Below are positions 1,881-42,649 of a stretch of DNA of 45,724 nt, piece by piece (the stretch's first letter is position 1; each line of letters begins with the position of its first letter). The stretch spans positions 1 through 45,724 of the forward strand of contig CANNQU010000020.1 of assembly GCA_947507965.1 (NCBI GenBank), given 5' to 3'. Source of the DNA: Bacteroidota bacterium. Lineage in GTDB: Bacteria > Bacteroidota > Bacteroidia > UKL13-3. A program made the position numbers and the translations under genes. The notes below the pieces were generated by a model that was not told the origin of the DNA, searched no databases, and saw only the letters and a list, made by a program, of their open reading frames with translations.

Positions 1881-3209
1881 TTATTTTTTGTCCTTGTTTG
1901 AGCGTCCCATATATGGTTGTACACAACGAAATCCGACAAAAGATTTACAGGTATCCTGATACTCATATAAGCGACTGCCGCATTCCAGGTAATAGCCTAC
2001 GTCTTTCCAGCTGCCACCACGTATTACTTTACGTTTAAAGGTTTCCGGTTCATCATCTTTAGCTTGGTACTTATAATCAGGGCTCAAATCGTCAACCACA
2101 GCAACCGACGATTCAAGATAGGCAGAAGATGTCCATTCGGAAACGTTGCCCGCCATATTATACAGGCCGTAGTCATTAGGGAAATAAGAATAAATTTTTA
2201 CAGGATAAAACCCACCATCGGCGATATAGTTACCGCGCCCTGGTTTGAAGTTAGCCAAATAGCAACCTTTGGTATTACGTATATAAGGACCTCCCCAAGG
2301 GAACATATTCTCATCACGTCCACCTCTGGCGGCATACTCCCACTGCGATTCGGTAGGCAATAGAAACTGGGTGCGCTCTAAATCACCAACCGACATGGCC
2401 CAATCATTCATGTGACGAGTTCTCCACCAACAAAAAGCATTCGCTTGATTCCAATTTACCCCTACCACTGGATAGTCATCATAATTTGGATGCCAGAAAT
2501 AGTCCTCCGTCATGGGCTCGTTATAAGAATATGCAAAATCACGAACGAAAACTAAGGTGTCGGGATATACTTGTACTTTATATTTCTTAATAAAATGAGA
2601 GTGATCTTCATTGCTATGCGCTGTTTTTAAATCTTCGGTGCTCTGTACTTTAGCAGAATGAGCAGCAGCCTGGAAATCGAATATTTCATACTTGTAAATC
2701 AAATTACGTACATCCACCTGACGGCGGTGCATAAAACGTTCGCCTGGTTTATAAAGCATCGCTTGACTCGCATCGATGGATTCTTGTGATTCAGGATCAA
2801 ATTTCTCCCGGTAGTTAAGAATGGAATATTGATCATCCAAAGCCGGCTCCTCCCCAATCTGTGTTTTCATCGTTTCAATACTCTGAGATAGGTTTTCTCT
2901 GAAAATCGAATCGGAAACATAATTTACAAACTGACGGTATTCATTATTCGACATCTCGGTATCATCCATATAAAATGCCGGGATTGATACTTGTTTGTTT
3001 TTATGGATTTGATGCGAGCCCACTTCCTGGTCGCTTTGACCCATGTGGTACGTCCCGGTTGGAACATAAATCATTCCAAAGGGCTGAGGATGAGTCCATA
3101 TAGGGCGGTTGGGAACACCGTATAACTCACCATTATCGCCACCCGTACATCCAGCCAATACAATGATTGCCATAACCAAAACATACAGAAATTGAAAACT
3201 TTTACGCAT
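1881..3209 (-). CDS. gldK: Gliding motility / type IX secretion lipoprotein GldK
   Basis: GldK is an outer-membrane-anchored lipoprotein that forms a periplasmic ring with GldN in the T9SS. The N-terminus is a lipoprotein signal with lipobox LAGC, followed by FGMIYVPTGTYHMGQSDQ, the start of a formylglycine-generating-enzyme/sulfatase-modifying-like fold. The C-terminal RGGSWKD and GFRCV motifs complete that fold. I start at the ATG at 3209 (MRKSFQFLYV). In-frame ATGs at 3215 and 3233 also exist, but the 3233 codon overlaps a TAAATTTG -7 element and would lie upstream of the transcription start. It is the first gene of the apparent gldK-L-M operon. Confidence 0.95.
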   Translation of the reverse strand: MRKSFQFLYVLVMAIIVLAGCTGGDNGELYGVPNRPIWTHPQPFGMIYVPTGTYHMGQSDQEVGSHQIHKNKQVSIPAFYMDDTEMSNNEYRQFVNYVSDSIFRENLSQSIETMKTQIGEEPALDDQYSILNYREKFDPESQESIDASQAMLYKPGERFMHRRQVDVRNLIYKYEIFDFQAAAHSAKVQSTEDLKTAHSNEDHSHFIKKYKVQVYPDTLVFVRDFAYSYNEPMTEDYFWHPNYDDYPVVGVNWNQANAFCWWRTRHMNDWAMSVGDLERTQFLLPTESQWEYAARGGRDENMFPWGGPYIRNTKGCYLANFKPGRGNYIADGGFYPVKIYSYFPNDYGLYNMAGNVSEWTSSAYLESSVAVVDDLSPDYKYQAKDDEPETFKRKVIRGGSWKDVGYYLECGSRLYEYQDTCKSFVGFRCVQPYMGRSNKDKK

Positions 3210-3230
3210 AGTCATACTAATTATAGATTG

Positions 3231-3260
3231 CAAATTTAAAAATATTACTCAATTAAACAA
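3231..3260 (-). promoter_or_regulatory. Predicted Bacteroidota-type promoter of gldKLM
   Basis: Read on the minus strand, TTG (3258-3260) is followed by exactly 19 bp and then TAAATTTG (3231-3238). This matches the TTG / 19-21 bp / TAnnTTTG pattern of primary-sigma promoters in this phylum. Transcription would begin near 3224, a few bases upstream of the ATGs at 3215 and 3209, so this element decides the gldK start. Confidence 0.65.
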
Positions 3261-3447
3261 GTTTTGATTAAAAACATATTTAATTCCACTTACCACAATA
3301 GTTTTTGTTTTTCTCAAATTCTAGTATTTAATTACTTAAACGAAACTTTTTGTTTTTTATTGTTTACGTTTTTATTTATTTTTAATTTCCTTGCACCATC
3401 AGTGCCTTTCTCATGAAATCCACCATCGAATCTCACGACCATAAAAC

Positions 3448-4476
3448 TTAGTGCTGCGTGTCTTTCAGGTGACGAGGATCTAGCATATACTTCGTTGGCT
3501 TGGCTGTAATTACGATGCTTTTACAATATTGAACAAATAGCTCATGTGTGGTACGACTTCCTGGTTTCAGACCATTTACCACAAAATCGAAGGCATATCC
3601 CACTTTAAAATCGCCTTGCATAAAACCAATCATTAAATTGATATTATCGCCTTGTCGGTATGATAATCCGCCATAAAATTGTTGATTTAGTATGGCCAGG
3701 GCATTAATATCAATTTGCACGGTGCTTTTGTATTTGACTAAAATGTTAGGTTGAATAACTAAGCCCCCGGTACCGATCATGAAATTCATACCTGCATTAG
3801 CGTAGTAGTGCATGGTAATCGATGAGAAATTAGGAACGAATCCTCCCGACTTGTCGAAAACATTGGCTTCTAATAAGTGAACAGCCGATATTCCTACATT
3901 TAGATCATTTAATAGCGGGTTATAATAATGAGCTCCCACACCTAAATCATTCATCGACTTACTGGTAATAAGCATCGAAGGCACAGAAGGGTCGATTACC
4001 GAAGGATTCTGCAAAACAGATAGTGCTCTAAGCTTTGTACCATCTAACGACTTCTGCATTTGACCATAATACAATCCAAAAGATAATTCGCTCGTATTTT
4101 GAAACGACTTATAATACGCCAAACTTAGTTTCGGTAAAATAAAAGATTGAGGCCCAATTTTATCGTTGATTAAATTAACGGCAACGCCCCATTTTTCAAA
4201 TAATCTAGCCGAAAGATTCAAATATTGAGTAGAGGCCTTAATTTTGTAAGGCGCCACTTTATCCGTGCCGGCTTCGTTTTGAATTAAATCACTCATAAAA
4301 CCTGCATACTGCTCGTGAACCAATAAGCTCACGCACATTTTATCTTTCACCTTGCCTGCATAGGAAGGATTAAATGACACTTCATTGAATTGAAAATGTG
4401 TTTGGTATCCATCCTGTTGCGACCAAGCATTTACAGTTAAAGCAACAAAAAACAATAGCGTAATTTTCTTAATCAT
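3448..4476 (-). CDS. PorP/SprF family type IX secretion outer-membrane protein
   Basis: 342 residues with a Sec signal peptide (MIKKITLLFFVALTVNAWSQ). The mature start is typical of PorP/SprF proteins (FNEVSFNPSYAGK), followed by alternating amphipathic strands of an outer-membrane beta-barrel. These proteins associate with the T9SS and with surface attachment of some cargo. It lies directly upstream of gldK on the same strand, a common arrangement. A 214-bp gap and a separate promoter in front of gldK suggest it can be transcribed on its own. A -7-like TATATTTG lies at 4526-4533 on the minus strand. Confidence 0.9.
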   Translation of the reverse strand: MIKKITLLFFVALTVNAWSQQDGYQTHFQFNEVSFNPSYAGKVKDKMCVSLLVHEQYAGFMSDLIQNEAGTDKVAPYKIKASTQYLNLSARLFEKWGVAVNLINDKIGPQSFILPKLSLAYYKSFQNTSELSFGLYYGQMQKSLDGTKLRALSVLQNPSVIDPSVPSMLITSKSMNDLGVGAHYYNPLLNDLNVGISAVHLLEANVFDKSGGFVPNFSSITMHYYANAGMNFMIGTGGLVIQPNILVKYKSTVQIDINALAILNQQFYGGLSYRQGDNINLMIGFMQGDFKVGYAFDFVVNGLKPGSRTTHELFVQYCKSIVITAKPTKYMLDPRHLKDTQH

Positions 4477-4691
4477 ATTTCCTTTTTTAGTTAAAGGTGC
4501 ACGTATGCAAATACGTATATTTCTTCAAATATAACAAAAAAAAATAGAAAGAAAACGTTTTACACCTTATAATCGTTTCTTCTGGCTCGAAAGAAGCACA
4601 AAAATGGTGATGGTATCACCTACGAAAAACTGCTTTTCTCATTGCTTGTGACGACCATCAAACGATGGTGTCCAACGAATAGGATGCATTT

Positions 4692-5735
4692 TCATCGCTT
4701 CATTTTCTGCGCTGGAAGTTCTATGGCATGATACATTATAACGGCCCCGATGAGCGTACTGGAAAAACTCAGTAAAACAATAAGATTCTGCGAAAGCCCC
4801 TGAATATATAGATAGTCGACTTTACACCAAAACCAAATCGCTAAGAAATGTAGCAAGTAAAATTGAAAACTAATATTTCCTAAATAAACGAAGACCCGGT
4901 TTCCAAGAAATTTTGATATCATTCCTTGTTCGAAGCTAAACACAAAAATGAGAGCGGCGGCACTTGGTAAATAGTATATTACAAATCGGAAGTTTTCAGG
5001 CACTTGTTGATGCCATGCCACACAACCTATTACAACAAAAATGGCTACGATCTCCAAGGCGGTGCCTCGCATGATGGAGTGATGTAGCGGGATGCCTTTA
5101 TACATTATATATAAACCGATGCCACATAAAAACAATGCCAAATTAGATAACGGAAATAAATAGAACCAAAATTTAGCTATGGATGGGTCGTCTAAAAACC
5201 AAATGGCAACACCTTGCACCAAAATGAACCCTAAAACAATAATAATTCCGGTGGTCCATTTTACTTTATGAAGAGAGGCAATTAAAAAAGGAAATAAAAA
5301 ATAAAAAAATATTTCAACTGATAAACTCCATGCCGGTGGGTTTAAAAACCACTGATACCCATTATTGGGCACCCAGGCTTGAACCAATAAAAAATTGGAA
5401 AGAAGAATCGAAATGTAATTTCTGTTAGTCCATAACTCCTGTGCAAAATAAAACGACAACAAAAGCATTACCCAGGTGGAAGGATATATTTTTAAAAATC
5501 GCTTCCAATAGAATCGTACGATGGAAGGGTAGTGTAACGTCGAAAATTTGTCGTAATAGTTGTAGGAAAGAATAAATCCACTGAGAATAAAGAAGAAGTT
5601 TACACCAATAAATCCTTGCTTAAGCCATACTTTATAGTCTAAAAACCAAGATCCTTCTTGCGTAACAAAGGAAGTATGCGACAAGAAAACCATCAAGGCG
5701 AATACAAAACGAAACGATGTTAGCGAACGAATCAA
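4692..5735 (-). CDS. Membrane acyltransferase 3 family protein (OafA/YrhL-like)
   Basis: 347 residues with about ten hydrophobic helices and the family's N-terminal block: MIRSLTSFRFVFALMVFLSH, with the conserved R and H of the acyltransferase-3 active site, then GVNFFFILSGFILSYNY. Members move acyl groups (often acetyl) onto surface sugars, exopolysaccharide or lipids in the cytoplasmic membrane. The substrate cannot be told. It lies just downstream of the alpha-amylase on the same strand (54-bp gap) and could be co-transcribed with it, though no functional link is evident. Confidence 0.9.
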   Translation of the reverse strand: MIRSLTSFRFVFALMVFLSHTSFVTQEGSWFLDYKVWLKQGFIGVNFFFILSGFILSYNYYDKFSTLHYPSIVRFYWKRFLKIYPSTWVMLLLSFYFAQELWTNRNYISILLSNFLLVQAWVPNNGYQWFLNPPAWSLSVEIFFYFLFPFLIASLHKVKWTTGIIIVLGFILVQGVAIWFLDDPSIAKFWFYLFPLSNLALFLCGIGLYIMYKGIPLHHSIMRGTALEIVAIFVVIGCVAWHQQVPENFRFVIYYLPSAAALIFVFSFEQGMISKFLGNRVFVYLGNISFQFYLLHFLAIWFWCKVDYLYIQGLSQNLIVLLSFSSTLIGAVIMYHAIELPAQKMKR

Positions 5736-37305: not shown

Positions 37306-37573
37306 AAGGCACGAAGGTAGGCAAAATTGAGGATCATGGCTAGGTGCTTTCATTTCTAATAAATAAGTGCTGAATACTTTGGGCCATCAGTTTAAACAAG
37401 GCCTACACAAAAATCAGTTTATTATTATTAAATTGCGAACAAAAAAGCAACGTACTTGTATAAAGCCAACAACTGGAAGCAGACTTTATGCAATATAGTC
37501 GCACATATAACATGTTAAGGGCATGCTTGAACTACAATTGTCCATTGGTTAAACAATGAAAAATAAATAAAAA

Positions 37574-38527
37574 ATGAAAAATTTACTTTTTACAGCAATT
37601 GCAATCTTCGGATTATCGACAATTACATTTGGCCAAACAGTACCTTCTTATGTTCCTTCCAATGGACTAGTTGGTTGGTGGCCTTTTAATGGAAATGCTT
37701 ATGATGAAAGTGGGAATGGGAATAATGGAACTATTAATGGTGCTACTTTGACAAGTAATAGGTTTGGCAACGCGAATAGTGCATTTAGCTTTGATGGCTT
37801 GACATCATATATTACTGGTTCAATTGCTAATTTTACTAATACATCTAGCTCTACTGTTTCTGCATGGGTTAAATATACTGGTGATGCTGGTGGACAACCT
37901 TATGATTTATATTTTCAATACGGAAGTTACGGTAGTCACACATTTTCATATGACTACAACTTTAATAATAAAAATTTAGATTTATACTCTCAATGTTTTG
38001 CAAATCCATATACTAGTCTAAATATAACAAATGCTTGGCATCATATCGTTGTAGCTGACTCACTCGCAGAAACAACTATTTTTATTGACGGGAATATCTT
38101 GGTGAATTTCACATCGGGCTCCGGTTCTAATTGTTATCAAGGAAGTAATCAATTTTATATTGGAGGTGGGGTCAACAATCAATTTACTACAGGGCTTTTA
38201 GATGATATCGGAATTTGGAATCGCGCCTTAACACGACAAGAAATAACTTCTTTATATTCTAGTTCTTCTGTTGGAGTCAACGAAGTTTCACAATGTAATT
38301 TGTTTTCAGTTTTCCCTAACCCAGCTCAAAGCGCAATTAATGTAAAAGCAGATGCCAAACTTGTGGGTTCGGTATTTACGATTTATGACTACACGGGCAA
38401 AGGAGTTAAAACAGGAAAGCTAAACTCTGAAAATACAACCATTGAAATGGGAAATTTATCAGGTGGCATTTATACTTTCAGTATAGATGAAAACAGAAAG
38501 CAGACATTCAAGGTGATAAAAAAATAA
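37574..38527 (+). CDS. Secreted LamG-like (concanavalin-type) protein with T9SS sorting tail
   Basis: 317 residues. Signal peptide MKNLLFTAIAIFGLSTITFG, then the typical opening of a LamG/concanavalin-like fold (GLVGWWPFNGNAYDESGNGN), with FSFDGLTSYI and the conserved end DDIGIWNRALTRQEI. From FSVFPNPAQSAINVK to FKVIKK is a T9SS sorting tail. The domain usually binds glycans or acts as a carrier of other activities; no catalytic site is seen. The tail resembles that of the BNR-like protein at 42650. Base use is more AT-rich than in the housekeeping genes to its left, and the possible cassette region begins here. Confidence 0.9.
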   Translation: MKNLLFTAIAIFGLSTITFGQTVPSYVPSNGLVGWWPFNGNAYDESGNGNNGTINGATLTSNRFGNANSAFSFDGLTSYITGSIANFTNTSSSTVSAWVKYTGDAGGQPYDLYFQYGSYGSHTFSYDYNFNNKNLDLYSQCFANPYTSLNITNAWHHIVVADSLAETTIFIDGNILVNFTSGSGSNCYQGSNQFYIGGGVNNQFTTGLLDDIGIWNRALTRQEITSLYSSSSVGVNEVSQCNLFSVFPNPAQSAINVKADAKLVGSVFTIYDYTGKGVKTGKLNSENTTIEMGNLSGGIYTFSIDENRKQTFKVIKK

Positions 38528-38534
38528 GCCAGCC

Positions 38535-38590
38535 CTTAACAGCGTGTAAGCACAACCCTCCGGGTATGCGCCTACACGCCAAACGATATA
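38535..38590. repeat. attC-like imperfect inverted repeat S1
   Basis: Arms GCGTGTAAGCAC (38542-38553) and GCGCCTACACGC (38568-38579) pair at 10 of 12 positions. CTTAAC is just upstream, and AACGATAT (38582-38589) follows the second arm. It lies 8 bp past the stop codon of the LamG gene. Confidence 0.6.
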
Positions 38591-38668
38591 GCTATTTTAA
38601 ACCGACCGTTCACAATAAACAGAGGAGAAGTAAACATTGAAAACAACTAGAAAAGACTAATTTGACAT

Positions 38669-39172
38669 ATGGAAATTAAAATTCAAACCACAGCAATTTA
38701 CAACTGCTCACTTGAAAGAGCATTTAAAGCACCTATACTTTGCGATGTAACTAAAGTACACACAGGATTTGGACTTATGCCAAAAGTCACGAAGACAACT
38801 AATGACGAGAATTGGGGTAAGATCGGTTCAATAAAAAATGTTTATGCCGGAAAATCCATAACCTTTAAAGGTGGGGAAGTTTCAACTGATGAGGTTATTG
38901 AGCGCATTGAAAATAAGTATTGGAAAGTAGAAGTTGGAAATTTCAAATCTTGGATGTTGAACATTTGGAAATTCACATTCGAGTGGACAACAATTGAAAT
39001 TGAACCTAAAAAAATACAAATCAATTACGACTACACGATTCACGGAAAAGGTATTTTATTCATCCCTTTTCAATGGCTTTTTGCAAAAGTATTTTATAAA
39101 ATGTATATGAAACAAGTTCTAGAAAATGTACGAAAAATGGCAGAAGGAAACGAACCATTTCTATACGACTAA
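38669..39172 (+). CDS. SRPBCC (START/Bet v1-like) family protein
   Basis: 167 residues. The N-terminal IQTTAIYNCSLERAFKAPI is the usual first strand and helix of SRPBCC proteins (polyketide cyclase/START-like hydrophobic-ligand fold). Later it has strands with WTTIEIEPKKIQINYDYTIHG and a long C-terminal helix (VFYKMYMKQVLENVRKMAEG). Small cytoplasmic protein; ligand unknown. The gene sits between inverted repeats S1 and S2 and may be one cassette. Confidence 0.8.
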   Translation: MEIKIQTTAIYNCSLERAFKAPILCDVTKVHTGFGLMPKVTKTTNDENWGKIGSIKNVYAGKSITFKGGEVSTDEVIERIENKYWKVEVGNFKSWMLNIWKFTFEWTTIEIEPKKIQINYDYTIHGKGILFIPFQWLFAKVFYKMYMKQVLENVRKMAEGNEPFLYD

Positions 39173-39189
39173 AGATAAAAACAGCCACT

Positions 39190-39320
39190 AATTACGGTTT
39201 GGCAAAAGTGGCGGTTCAGTGCTTCGTATGACCGTTTGTGGTTCAACAAACAGTTGTGCTTCGTATCAACATTTGTGGTGAAAATCGCCACCTTCGCCAA
39301 GCCGCAAAACGATATCAATA
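39190..39320. repeat. attC-like imperfect inverted repeat S2
   Basis: Arms at 39195-39213 (CGGTTTGGCAAAAGTGGCG) and 39286-39304 pair at 16 of 19 positions. The 72-bp loop contains GGCGGTTCAGTG and TTGTGCTTCGTATCAA, words also found in S4. AACGATAT follows at 39308-39315. Confidence 0.75.
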
Positions 39321-39360
39321 ATTTGATGACTATGTTCCAAAAAAACGAAATAAAATAATC

Positions 39361-40125
39361 ATGAAACTACTGACAACAATTTTCATCCTAACAATTCTCT
39401 CAGCTTGCGTACAAACCCCTACCAAGACAACTGCAACTGAAAAGAAAATTACAAGAAATATCCAACACGACATTAATTTTCTAATTCCAACTGGAGAATA
39501 TATTGTTGACATTATGGATGAAGTAACAATTTCTCCACGCAGACAAGAATTGCAGGCCAAATTTACGAAGGCAATGAAGGACAATCCTGAGTGGTTTATG
39601 CAACAACAAAAACTTGTTGAGATAACGGGTAAAGGAATTTCCTATGACCCAAAATTGGGAATGAAGGAAGCGGAATGGGAAGAGTATAAAAAGCTCATAA
39701 ATAATATGAGCGATATGCAAGTTGTTTCATCCGGGACAGCCAAAATTACAGTTACTAAAACTGACGACATAATATCTTTCAAGGCTGAAGGTAAACTTTC
39801 TTATTTAAACTCCACAACCATTGACCTCAAGAATAATGTTGTCAAAGTTTCTGGTTATACCCTAACTCCGTTGGACACTATTTGTGTAACCAATGATGAT
39901 AATGCCTTTAAAACCTCATGGCGTGGATACAAGTGGCTGTTTTCAGACCCAGCAAATGCAGTAATGCCATCATCTCAAGAAGAACTCACACACTTTTCAA
40001 TGAAGCTTTACAGTCTAACTCTTGGACTTTTTGAGAAGACTAGAAGGTCATATATTGAAATTTCGGGTTCTGAGATAAGTGAAGGAAAAAAGACGGTTGA
40101 ATATAAAATACCAATTGTGTTCTGA
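39361..40125 (+). CDS. Hypothetical lipoprotein
   Basis: 254 residues, not recognised. The signal peptide ends in lipobox LSAC (MKLLTTIFILTILSAC, then VQTPTK). The mature protein is mixed and hydrophilic, with acidic and basic patches and no visible catalytic motif. It is bounded by inverted repeats S2 and S3, so it may be one cassette. Function unknown. Confidence 0.75.
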   Translation: MKLLTTIFILTILSACVQTPTKTTATEKKITRNIQHDINFLIPTGEYIVDIMDEVTISPRRQELQAKFTKAMKDNPEWFMQQQKLVEITGKGISYDPKLGMKEAEWEEYKKLINNMSDMQVVSSGTAKITVTKTDDIISFKAEGKLSYLNSTTIDLKNNVVKVSGYTLTPLDTICVTNDDNAFKTSWRGYKWLFSDPANAVMPSSQEELTHFSMKLYSLTLGLFEKTRRSYIEISGSEISEGKKTVEYKIPIVF

Positions 40126-40139
40126 TGAGAACTATTAAT

Positions 40140-40320
40140 GCAGCTAGCAGATGGGTTTAGAGCAATTTACTTTTGTGGGAGGGTACTCCGGTAATAAAGA
40201 GTATTGCTTCCTCTAACTTTTTTCGTAGTTTTGACGAGTACCGTTCCAAGCGCCACAAAAGTAAATTACTCAAACCGCAGAAACGATATCTGCAATGTTT
40301 GGAAACCGTTAAACATGAAA
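40140..40320. repeat. attC-like imperfect inverted repeat S3 with bulged base
   Basis: Arms at 40154-40178 and 40253-40276 pair over 23 bp with one mismatch and a single extrahelical A on the 5' side (GGTTTaGAG against GGTTTGAG). A second inner stem (GGTACTC/GAGTACC) lies within the loop. AACGATAT follows at 40282-40289, and a GTTAAAC core (GTTRRRY) occurs at 40308-40314. Confidence 0.75.
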
Positions 40321-40405
40321 CTTGACAACTAAATATTAAATTTGTTAACTAAAAAACGGGGAAGCTGAAAACCGAAAAGAGTAACCAATAACTAATTTAA
40401 AATAC

Positions 40406-40834
40406 ATGGACTTTAAAATTAACATTCTCGCTGTGTTGGTTGCTGTTGTAGCCAACTTTATTCTTGGTTCAATTTGGTATATGCCACTTTTTGGAAAAGT
40501 TTGGGGAAAAGAAATGGGGTATGACCCTAATTTGAAACCTGACAAGAAAGAAATGATGAAAGGAATGGCTTTTATGGTAATTGGAAATTTTCTTTTTGCA
40601 TGGGTGCTTGCCTGGACAATGGCTGGTTGGCAGTTTATCCCTGGTGCAAATGAAATGGGACCATTGGTGAATGCAATAAATTCTGCGATTTTTCTATGGC
40701 TTGGATTTTATATTCCCGGCAATTTGACAAATACAGTTTGGGAGAAAAAATCTTGGACGTTATTTGGAATTAATGCGGGGTATCAATTAGCGTCATTGTT
40801 AGTGGTTGCTTTTATTCTTACCTATTGGAAATAA
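40406..40834 (+). CDS. DUF1761 family membrane protein
   Basis: 142 residues. The opening ILAVLVAVVANFILGSIWYM and the LFGKVWGKEMG motif are typical of DUF1761. Four hydrophobic helices can be seen (about 5-25, 50-70, 85-103, 118-138). Function unknown; related genes are often found in accessory regions. TfoX-like and DUF1059-like genes follow with short gaps, so the three may be one transcription unit between S3 and S4. Confidence 0.85.
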   Translation: MDFKINILAVLVAVVANFILGSIWYMPLFGKVWGKEMGYDPNLKPDKKEMMKGMAFMVIGNFLFAWVLAWTMAGWQFIPGANEMGPLVNAINSAIFLWLGFYIPGNLTNTVWEKKSWTLFGINAGYQLASLLVVAFILTYWK

Positions 40835-40847
40835 AAACAATTACAAC

Positions 40848-41189
40848 ATGGCTTACAACGAAAAATTAGCAAATAGAATTCGTGAAGCACTTCAAGACCT
40901 TCCAATAATTGAAGAAAAGGAAATGATGGGTGGCCTGACATTTATGGTGAATGAAAAAATGTGCGTAGGAATTATAAAAGACGAAATGATGTGCCGAATT
41001 GACCCCACCTTTCACGAAACAGTAGTTGAAATGGCAGGTTGCAGGACAATGGATTTCACCAAACGACCAATGAAAGGTTATGTAATGGTGGACGATACAG
41101 GGATGAAAACCAAAAAGGAATTCGATTATTGGATTAATCTCTCCTTAGATTTCAATAGCAAAGCCAAGTCATCAAAAAAGAAAAAGTAA
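40848..41189 (+). CDS. TfoX N-terminal domain family protein
   Basis: 113 residues from the ATG at 40848 (MAYNEKLANRIREAL). The upstream in-frame codons overlap the end of the DUF1761 gene and are an unlikely start. Conserved blocks EMMGGLTFMVNEKMC and RPMKGYVMVDDTGM match the TfoX N-terminal fold (RmpG-like). The C-terminus is Lys/Ser-rich. TfoX relatives regulate competence in some bacteria, but this short form has no C-terminal half and a role cannot be claimed. It follows DUF1761 by 13 bp. Confidence 0.88.
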   Translation: MAYNEKLANRIREALQDLPIIEEKEMMGGLTFMVNEKMCVGIIKDEMMCRIDPTFHETVVEMAGCRTMDFTKRPMKGYVMVDDTGMKTKKEFDYWINLSLDFNSKAKSSKKKK

Positions 41190-41239
41190 TTTTATTAATT
41201 AATCATCGACCGACAAAAAAAATAACGAATTTGAAAACA

Positions 41240-41458
41240 ATGACGTGTAAGCAATTAGGTGGAGCATGTGAAAAAGAATTCCATGCAGATACATTTGAAT
41301 CAATGGCTGATCAAAGCAAAAAACATGCAATGGAGATGTTTCAACGTGGCGACAAAGCCCATTTAGACGCAATGAATAAAATGCAAGAACTTATGCAAAC
41401 ACCAGACGCCATGAAGGAATGGTTTGAAAATAAAAGAAAGGAATTCAATTCACTCTAA
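41240..41458 (+). CDS. DUF1059-like small protein
   Basis: 72 residues from the ATG at 41240 (MTCKQLGGACEKEFHADTFE). The earlier TTG at 41231 gives only three more residues and is less likely. The CKQLGGACEKEF block and helical acidic/basic pattern fit DUF1059-type small proteins; Cys residues could bind metal but are few. Function unknown. It is the last of the three-gene stretch between S3 and S4. Confidence 0.75.
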   Translation: MTCKQLGGACEKEFHADTFESMADQSKKHAMEMFQRGDKAHLDAMNKMQELMQTPDAMKEWFENKRKEFNSL

Positions 41459-41487
41459 TGTTGAGAGGACCGACAGAGAACACTTCA

Positions 41488-41620
41488 CATAACGGCACCT
41501 GCAAGAAATTGGCGGTTCAGTGGTTAAATGAAGCTTTGTGCTTCGTATCAAGTTCAGTGGTGGTAGACCGTTTTGTGCTCCGAAATCGCCAACTTCTTGT
41601 AGCTGCCAACCGAAACCACC
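41488..41620. repeat. attC-like imperfect inverted repeat S4
   Basis: Arms at 41494-41514 and 41587-41607 pair at 18 of 21 positions. The 72-bp loop contains GGCGGTTCAGTG and TTTGTGCTTCGTATCAA, as in S2, but AACGATAT is absent after the second arm (GCCAACCGAAAC instead). Confidence 0.75.
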
Positions 41621-41639
41621 AATTATAAACAACATCATT

Positions 41640-42014
41640 ATGACAAGGAAAATTACAAATTACTATTGGGTTTTTATCGTATTGCTACAAGTTGGAATCA
41701 TAATTAAAAAATTAATGTTTAATGGGATTCATATCCAAAATTCCATGACTTTAGTGGATGCATTCTTTTCCATTTTATGGAATATGGTTGCTCTTTTGGG
41801 TGCGTTGATTTTTATTTATAACAGATTTTATAAAAATAGAGTATTACTTAGCTGGGAAATACCACTTTCAGCATTTTTAGCACTTGATGGAGTCTCAAAT
41901 AGTATAGCACAATTTATAAGACTAGACAGTTATTTAGTTTTATATACGAGTCTAATTGTTGCTCCAGTATTATTGTTTATGACTTATTATATTTGGAAAG
42001 CTGAACAGAAATAA
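41640..42014 (+). CDS. Hypothetical small membrane protein
   Basis: 124 residues from the ATG at 41640 (MTRKITNYYWVFIVLLQVGI). The open frame extends upstream to 41538 through the S4 repeat, which is not coding. Hydrophobic helices lie at about 8-24, 35-58 and 93-118. Not recognised; no catalytic motif. It is bounded by S4 and S5 and may be a cassette. AT-rich. Confidence 0.75.
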   Translation: MTRKITNYYWVFIVLLQVGIIIKKLMFNGIHIQNSMTLVDAFFSILWNMVALLGALIFIYNRFYKNRVLLSWEIPLSAFLALDGVSNSIAQFIRLDSYLVLYTSLIVAPVLLFMTYYIWKAEQK

Positions 42015-42088
42015 TAAGGAAACACTCTTGAGTTCTCTTTTAATACCACTCATTTTGAGCAAAACAGGGACAGAATAACTGGTGGTAA

Positions 42089-42137
42089 CAACATAGGCTT
42101 CGTCGCGCCCGCAGGACGCACGATGAAGCCTATGTTG
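42089..42137. repeat. Inverted repeat S5 in a non-coding stretch
   Basis: The outer arms CAACATAGGCTTC (42089-42101) and GAAGCCTATGTTG (42125-42137) are complementary over 13 bp without a mismatch. The pairing extends inward with one or two mismatches (CGTCGCG on the left, GCACGAT on the right). The gap between 42015 and 42649 holds no gene, only this element and the A copy of the hairpin repeat. Confidence 0.7.
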
Positions 42138-42371
42138 CACGGAACCTTTGGTAGTTTTAATCTTTCTACGGGGATTGCGTTGTTGTTTCTGTTTTTGAAA
42201 ATAACTTGGTGAGCATAATTTTCAATCTTACAAACTATACGACCTTACCATAGCTGGCTCGTTCACTAAAAATGTCCACCGGACATTTTCTTAACGCTCG
42301 GCCCTCAAGCAGAAGTAATTAAGCCATCCTCGTTGTACTTCGTTTCGTTTGCTGATGGGATCGATGATAAT

Positions 42372-42510
42372 CAACTACGGGTGTGGCTAATACAAGACCA
42401 TGGCTCACAACACCACTACTCATAACTGGCCGATAGGCAAACCGCCGCCACATTCGTTATATTTGTTTCGGAATGGATGGTAGGCGGCACTTCGCCTATC
42501 GGCCATGACC
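42372..42510 (+). repeat. 139-bp repeat A with hairpin arms (second copy at 45220)
   Basis: Starts CAACTACGGGTGTGGC and ends GGCCATGACCTTA. Contains arms GGCCGATAGGCAAACCGCCGCC (42428-42449, first 20 shown in part) and the opposite arm 42484-42505, which pair closely, with a loop ATTCGTTATATTTGTTTC-like in between. The copy at 45220-45359 is about 85% identical by eye. Confidence 0.8.
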
Positions 42511-42649
42511 TTACCTGCAAAGTTTCTGTGGTAAATCAAATATTCGTTTTTCAAATCAGATTTTGTAGTAAAAATCCCGACCTTCGTATCGCTGTAAAAC
42601 CGTTAAGGCCAAGCATTGAAATAAATTCGTGTATTTAAATAGTAGAAAA

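Follow-up and report, generated by a model that had tools for sequence, protein, structure and literature searches.

A probable decayed gene-cassette array in a Bacteroidota genome and an integron-like system that appears to run on a recombinase without the additional domain of IntI

Integrons of the IntI type (classes 1–3 and the sedentary chromosomal ones) combine the gene of a tyrosine recombinase with an entry site, attI, and a tandem array of gene cassettes, each of which ends at its 3' side in a hairpin site, attC. Integron cores follow the consensus RYYYAAC/GTTRRRY, and chromosome dimers are resolved by Xer enzymes acting at dif. A CALIN, or cluster of attC sites lacking an integrase, has at least two such sites and no integrase in its vicinity. 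The subject here is a contig, C20 (CANNQU010000020.1), of the 3.36-Mb draft genome of a Bacteroidota bacterium (Bacteroidia; UKL13-3); the whole contig, 45,724 b, is the window of this analysis. Between 37 and 43 kb it carries small genes separated by hairpins. With a probability of about 0.9, this stretch is a row of gene cassettes, now partly decayed, that belongs to an integron-type system, whose recombinase, of the Xer/IntI superfamily, would be encoded elsewhere in the same genome.

Surveys define IntI by an additional domain (PMC8352920, PMC9668308, PMC2426708), and since they identify integron integrases by it, a system without that domain can be missed. For Bacteroidetes, the IntegronFinder 2.0 paper reports only In0 elements at first and then one complete integron, in Salinibacter (PMC9024848), and another source includes Bacteroidota among the phyla listed with integrons (PMC8618304). 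A paper from 2016 imagines the gain of an I2-like domain for the transition from Xer to attC recombination (PMC4792948), and a further one calls the insertion 'not fully conserved' in an integron-like subgroup (PMC8138268). Among the literature matches listed, in the extracts they give, there is no description of Bacteroidota integrons that are patchless, that is, whose recombinase lacks the additional domain; preprints and most subscription papers lay outside this search, and a prior description is possible.

Two of the window hairpins, S2 and S4, are members of a family of sites of about 126 bp with the form NNNN-TAAC … GTTA-NNNN, whose cores are compatible with the integron consensus. A covariance model of 134 positions, R1, built from six copies (alignment A2), matches 39 of 41 genomes, the window's own and its relatives, at E <= 0.1; across the phylum, at E <= 1e-6, it has matches in 75 of 198 genomes, spread over 43 of 103 genera. 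It matches none of 32 genomes of other phyla with a distant homologue of the recombinase, which serves as a specificity control only, the empty result being uninformative alone. When 75 sites are brought into register, the left core is (T/C)AAC in 72, the right core GTT(A/G) with the next 4 nt is present in 66, and the core-to-core length is mostly 124–128 nt. By eye, a site consists of TAAC, 1 nt, about 20 paired nt, a loop, about 20 nt, 5 nt and GTTA, with transitions at recurring places; these repeated wobble positions, the 1-nt/5-nt spacer and a single-base bulge in only some copies set it apart from the sites of IntI integrons. In 64 aligned matches, 92.8% of the cells are paired and 20 of 20 pairs have changed on both sides, while slid controls give 28–45%. 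Folded as DNA, the bottom strand does better than the top strand for 28 of the 39 sites that are non-redundant (p = 0.009).

By integron logic, the part of the right core past the crossover belongs to the next cassette, so that each end of a cassette is expected to be complementary to the cassette's other end, not to sequence in the hairpin where it lies; in IntI integrons this R-box complementarity is likewise completed only in the excised circle. Consecutive sites less than 4 kb apart were compared, after 3 of the 75 matches without a left core and 9 without a usable right core had been dropped. Among 37 such pairs, 24 show a perfect reverse-complement match between the 4 nt that follow GTTA in one site and the 4 nt that precede TAAC in the next. 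The same comparison inside a single site gives 4 of 64, and none of 20,000 permutations of this first set reaches 24 (best 9). Fresh loci, taken through a structural scan that uses no site sequence except the cores, give complementary ends in 27 of 36 pairs, against 2 of 53 within the same site (0 of 50,000 permutations as high, best 11). Two sites lying 7 kb apart on contig C36 of the window's genome also match (TAGC/GCTA). Taking all sets together, 65 cassettes have perfect ends, with a median of 841 nt; the longest open reading frame (ORF) runs along the array in 55 and against it in 4, and 6 have none, in line with the mostly codirectional genes of IntI integrons.

Sequence comparison also indicates that cassettes, each of one or more genes plus attC, are mobilised as precise units. 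Comparing 89 cassette bodies with the loci yields six cross-genome pairs, four of which were examined with 900-nt flanks (the other two are L121/L197 and L192/L207). The cassette common to G019 and G006 is 96% identical over 811 nt, exactly from one GTTA to the next, and that common to Flavobacterium enshiense and G098, a genome of the same phylum as the window's and of another class, is 87% identical over 1448 nt, covering the body and its own attC and starting 2 nt outside the core. Neither of these clean-bordered cassettes has a second match in the flanks at E 1e-5. In the L088/L095 body the left border is exact to within 2 nt and the right part is cut short, and neither border of the L204/L124 body is clean. 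It could be argued that the sites are short non-autonomous mobile elements, of the repetitive extragenic palindrome or miniature inverted-repeat kind, inserted between genes and possibly spread by the same recombinase. The dispersed single copies in the window's own genome would suit this explanation, as would the possible insertion of S5 into S6, but the unit that is transferred is a gene with its hairpin, and what lies between the complementary ends is the gene and not the hairpin, so that this explanation appears extremely unlikely.

The integron-type reading is further supported by where the sites lie. A scan of named genomes with recombinase alignment A4 provided the best 80 of at least 592 loci, of which 43 are from Bacteroidota (counting, in the structural-scan tallies, L111, labelled only 'bacterium') and 37 are other. 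At the strict cut-off of 15.8, the structural scan gives 46 sites, spread over 16 of the 43 Bacteroidota loci, and every one of them lies downstream of the recombinase gene and on its strand; there are none in 343 kb upstream and none in the 37 other loci. Looser cut-offs of 15.5, 15.0 and 14.0 place 51 of 52, 54 of 57 and 63 of 73 sites in this position, with 0, 0 and 3 matches in other loci. Model R1 gives 34 rows on these loci, 3 of them reverse-strand duplicates; 27 of the rest are downstream and codirectional and 4 are not. Flavobacterium enshiense DK69 has ten sites in 9 kb beside the recombinase, and further examples of recombinase plus array are found in G019, G006, the complete genome G098 and the Chryseobacterium plasmid NZ_CP041688.

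On this plasmid, from Chryseobacterium sp. SNU WT5 (L181:16001-31956), the cassettes are accompanied by genes for an IS110 transposase and for the reverse transcriptase of a group II intron; IS110 elements and group II introns target attC sites in ordinary integrons. The plasmid also has four opposite-strand matches of 147–149 nt, which form one sequence family.

In an integron the first cassette enters at attI, and 4 nt complementary to its 3' end are therefore expected after a GTT core between the recombinase stop codon and the first site. The predicted 8-mer is present there in 21 of 24 loci, against 1.45 expected, the misses being L117, L121 and L156 (the 24 leave out some loci with recombinase and site, e.g. 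L087, L089, L090 and L095–L097); the system thus has an attI-like core at the presumed cassette entry. This core lies within 180 nt of the stop codon in 16 loci, about half of them with a preceding stretch like ATATAnAnnA, and at 277–1113 nt in five, where it is probably the end of an undetected site. The Bacteroidota -7 promoter motif is TAnnTTTG; of 16 aligned loci, 5 have it between the stop codon and attI, and 13 of 20 further loci have it no more than 160 nt from the stop codon, both being counts without a background expectation. The window's own genome has such a locus on contig C119, where a recombinase gene (1720-2784) is followed by GTTA-CCGG at 2858, a gene (2911-4968), CCGG-TAAC at 4997 and a short hairpin; judged by this layout, C119 is a complete one-cassette copy of the system.

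The model proposed here is that a cassette consists of one or a few genes and an attC-like hairpin of about 60–130 nt, and that the tyrosine recombinase encoded beside the arrays would insert and remove cassettes by crossing over within the GTTA core, its presumed substrate being the bottom strand of the site in folded form. The first cassette would enter the attI-like site just 3' of the recombinase gene, so that cassettes would be read in the direction of that gene, and a promoter past the recombinase stop codon may drive their expression. In contrast to IntI integrons, the recombinase gene is transcribed towards the array.

The recombinase itself differs from IntI. The spacing between its KDR and LRHS motifs is 63–69 in 34 Bacteroidota recombinases, many but not all of them beside sites (L177 and L218, with no protein, and L166, with no spacing, are left out), 106 in all 12 IntI measured and 69–72 in eight XerC/D-type proteins. 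The additional domain of IntI, about 42 residues, is thus absent from the Bacteroidota recombinases, which have an N-terminal extension of about 60–70 residues. The IntI family model TIGR02249 (cut-off 265 bits) scores 202–225 bits for five array-type proteins and exceeds its cut-off in none of 41 relatives; matches below the cut-off were discarded as evidence, because all 41 relatives and all 14 controls give them. NCBIfam NF040815, 'site-specific tyrosine recombinase/integron integrase' (cut-off 220), gives 213–247 bits for the five proteins, three of which reach the cut-off (226–247); the name of this family itself suggests a link to integrons. In a tree of 73 proteins, IntI and Xer each form a clade (100/100 in both cases) and the Bacteroidota recombinases lie outside both, without forming a resolved group of their own; the eight XerC/D-type proteins, from the same genome group as array recombinases, make up a separate, fully supported clade. 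An AlphaFold2 model (predicted local distance difference test score 82) finds its best structural matches in XerA (5hxy, Z 21.7; 4a8e, Z 21.6) and IntI4 (2a3v, Z 20.1), the N-terminal 60 or so residues being barely covered by this fold search. By the tests made, the system is integron-like in its predicted working, and its recombinase is judged not to be a canonical IntI.

Side observations concern several recombinases. Five loci (L113, L122, L130, L133, L142) have open frames of about 460–700 residues with, by eye, two copies of an N-terminal 'W...W.iP' domain. Recombinases with a similar N-terminal extension are encoded on contigs labelled Undinarchaeales, Firmicutes and Spirochaetota (L131, L137, L140), whose examined flanks have no site by R1 or the strict scan. 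A separate patchless tyrosine recombinase (L082:306-2372, on G000:C89, and L093) adjoins on C89 what by eye resembles an IS91-type transposase, and the C89 protein and one from G009 form a branch of their own in the tree.

It could be held that the sites are ordinary attC sites of an IntI acting in trans or since lost, with the patchless recombinase a bystander. Their anatomy is attC-like, and of 296 genomes searched in the phylum 84 have a true IntI above the cut-off, some of them together with R1 sites. Yet only one of the 84 is in the window's class and 83 are outside it, canonical IntI being common among the phylum's remaining classes as grouped here (the 296 are not broken down by class), and 16 chosen true-IntI loci (199 kb) contain no R1 site and two structural matches at 15.5, one of them above 15.8. 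Moreover, the gene upstream of the sites is that of the patchless recombinase, accompanied by an attI-like core that matches them, which makes the bystander account improbable.

The array in the window has the features given in the table below. The sequence-only reading had described inverted repeats between its genes, and these are indeed present and fold as single-stranded DNA better than shuffled sequences (z -1.9 for S1, -2.1 for S2 and S4, -4.5 for S3, -4.4 for S5). Its inventory held for the hairpins reported and was incomplete, as the LamG/Por-tail gene is a cassette too and three more sites (S4b, S5, S6) follow. The ends of cassette 1, GTTA-AGGGC and GCCCT-TAAC, and of cassette 5, GAAA-CCACC and GGTGG-TAAC, are perfectly complementary over 5 nt, cassette 1 having a 16-nt inverted repeat with 88% complementarity (pair I17); those of cassette 4 are complementary at 3 of 4 nt. 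Independent support for S2 comes from blastn homologues, 78–85% identical, on contigs C36, C66, C69 and C11 (on C11 over 54 nt only). Copies of S4, 85–88% identical, occur in arrays of relatives, and an S5 copy (81%) directly abuts an S4-type site on contig C8 of the same genome. S1 and S3 are missed by R1 in the window scan, and a short-form site comparable to S1 lies 3' of the C119 cassette. S4b is 70% identical over 105 nt to a hairpin 3' of the G027:C57 recombinase (L042:1-105). As had been noticed, S2 and S4 share loop words, which they do because they belong to one site family.

Table. Features of the cassette array in the window (positions of the whole 45,724-b stretch)
Feature	Position	Strand	Description
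Candidate orphan attI-like stretch (GCACATATAACAT followed by GTTA)	37486..37517	+	ahead of first cassette
Cassette 1	37514..38540	+	LamG/Por_Secre_tail gene 37574-38527; Pfam Laminin_G_3, Por_Secre_tail
S1, attC-like, short form	38537..38588	+	hairpin; right core GATA, not GTTA
Cassette 2	38585..39193	+	gene 38669-39172; no Pfam family; ends without complementarity
S2, attC-like, 126 nt	39189..39314	+	left core eroded (TAAT), right core GATA; R1 E 4e-36, not independent as S2 is a training copy
Cassette 3	39311..40150	+	lipoprotein-like gene 39361-40125; no Pfam family; ends without complementarity
S3, attC-like	40146..40288	+	right core GATA, left core unrecognisable; 27-nt arms, 85% complementary
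Cassette 4	40285..41493	+	DUF1761 40406-40834, TfoX_N 40848-41189 (Pfam), small ORF 41231-41458
S4, attC-like, 126 nt	41490..41615	+	right core GAAA; R1 E 6.5e-26 (training member); structural scan 17.2
Cassette 5	41612..42089	+	small ORF 41643-42014, membrane-protein-like; ends paired
S4b, attC-like short hairpin	42086..42150	+	right end eroded; 20-nt arms, 90% complementary; folding z -4.8
S5, attC-like	42423..42513	+	right core CTTA; 23-nt arms, 87% complementary
S6, attC-like	42502..42605	+	left arm eroded, right core GTTA; R1 43.5 bits, E 9e-10

The array has seven attC-like sites, and the ORF lists of its contig contain no recombinase, so that it fits a CALIN; it differs in that its sites belong to a patchless system, not to IntI, with the recombinase elsewhere in the genome. 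The sequence-only reading had proposed such a cluster, or an unnamed Bacteroidota cassette system, and end complementarity, recombinase association, the attI-like core and whole-cassette transfer all speak for it. Its statement that an integrase is absent is right for the vicinity of the array only: a site-specific tyrosine recombinase of the right kind, though not a canonical IntI, stands beside arrays of the system and on C119. The eroded cores GATA, GAAA and CTTA suggest that most window sites are inactive or poorly active, and the array appears to be an eroded, decaying cassette cluster of the integron-type system.

Could the small genes instead be ordinary ones with nothing mobile about them, and the hairpins between them intrinsic terminators of transcription or elements that stabilise RNA? 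The hairpins do lie between codirectional genes and fold well. A terminator would be a hairpin followed by a T-run with no link to cassette ends; inspection by eye reveals no T-run directly 3' of S1–S4, the complementarity of the ends spans a whole cassette and not one hairpin, homology blocks stop at cores, and strict-cut-off sites occur only downstream of one recombinase type. Gene order near era also varies within the genus, where an identical order in relatives had been named as an objection to a cassette array. Genome G002 has near era a DUF1761 gene with 89% DNA identity over 651 nt, other neighbours and no site, the homology beginning 10 nt past the G of the S3 core, and both sites and DUF1761 are missing from the stretches examined near era in G001 (to the contig end) and G004. 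Hairpin homologues, whose lack would likewise have counted against an array, do exist on other contigs and in relatives. The terminator explanation is therefore very unlikely.

Several points weigh against reading the window as part of an integron-type system. Only two window cassettes (1 and 5) keep complementary ends, the cores of S1–S3 are GATA, S1 and S3 escape R1 and no recombinase is seen on the contig. The candidate attI-like stretch resembles the attI context by eye, its spacing being 1 nt short, and failed the matrix test, since 37514 is outside the top 8 of the position matrix in the window. On C119, R1 misses the site even at E 5, and this site folds better as top strand (-19.8 vs -15.3); the bottom-strand preference in the family, 28 of 39, is itself modest. 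The strict cut-off of 15.8 was set after first looks; it leaves 27 of the 43 Bacteroidota recombinase loci without a site, and at 14.0, 10 of 73 sites lie elsewhere and 3 appear in the other loci. With R1, 4 of 31 non-duplicate sites are upstream or on the other strand. The alignment behind the covariation count was made to fit the model, and training sites are among its rows, as are some duplicates from the reverse strand. Finally, recombination as such is deduced from sequence.

Taken beyond the window, it seems that a gene-collecting system of integron type, widespread in Bacteroidota, runs on a recombinase without the domain thought to define integron integrases. Probably this is a second, phylum-wide integron lineage, with its own attC and attI families, whose recombinase never had or has lost the additional domain. 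If so, integron-type recombination would not need that domain, held essential for integron activity, and the lineage may be either a surviving step between Xer and IntI or an independent invention. Without the domain, the hairpin might be recognised through the wobble positions that recur in the sites, through the 1/5-nt spacer or through the N-terminal extension of the recombinase, which by eye is duplicated in some members. It also becomes possible to test by what route Xer-like recombinases acquired the ability to act on folded attC sites, a long-standing question. The spread of sites through the phylum, the cassette that F. enshiense shares with G098, a genome outside the window's class, and the plasmid-borne array would add a large gene-exchange network.

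Short words were also considered as signals. The word AACGATAT does follow S1, S2 and S3 (at 38582, 39308 and 40282), as had been pointed out, and it occurs six times in the window, where 2.4 are expected, a mild excess (six or more in 3 of 100 shuffles). The genome has 264 copies, against 149 of the reversed word. A genome-wide search for AACGATAT next to hairpins, which had been suggested, found no further hairpin-linked copies, an outcome that had been named in advance as counting against the reading, and the word was rejected as a genome-wide signal: five other copies of GCNNAACGATAT have no stem above background, with best stem scores of 9.0–9.8, where 60 random places have a median of 10 and a maximum of 12. 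The same test gives 16.2 for S2, 14.2 for S3 and 10.0 for S1, whose stem is too short for it. The core of the site family is C-GTTA-NNNN, GATA replacing GTTA in three neighbouring window cassettes, and AACGATAT reads as an altered form of the AACGTTAT core. The loop word TTGTGCTTCGTATCAA was likewise rejected as a signal alone (37 places with <=3 mismatches, against 33 for a control).

Two descriptions of the window's genes held in part. The genes are AT-rich, with a GC content of 0.35–0.36 at 37–42 kb against about 0.40 across much of the window, but 1-kb bins equally low lie at 1–2, 4–6 and 14–15 kb. Among the proposed gene identities, Pfam confirms DUF1761 and TfoX_N, and the SRPBCC, lipoprotein, DUF1059 and membrane genes have no Pfam match at E 0.001. 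The window encodes Gld-like genes and Por_Secre_tail domains (Pfam, ORF lists), which point to Bacteroidota, and the only Rfam match is a 5S ribosomal RNA gene at the contig end (45592-45703, minus strand).

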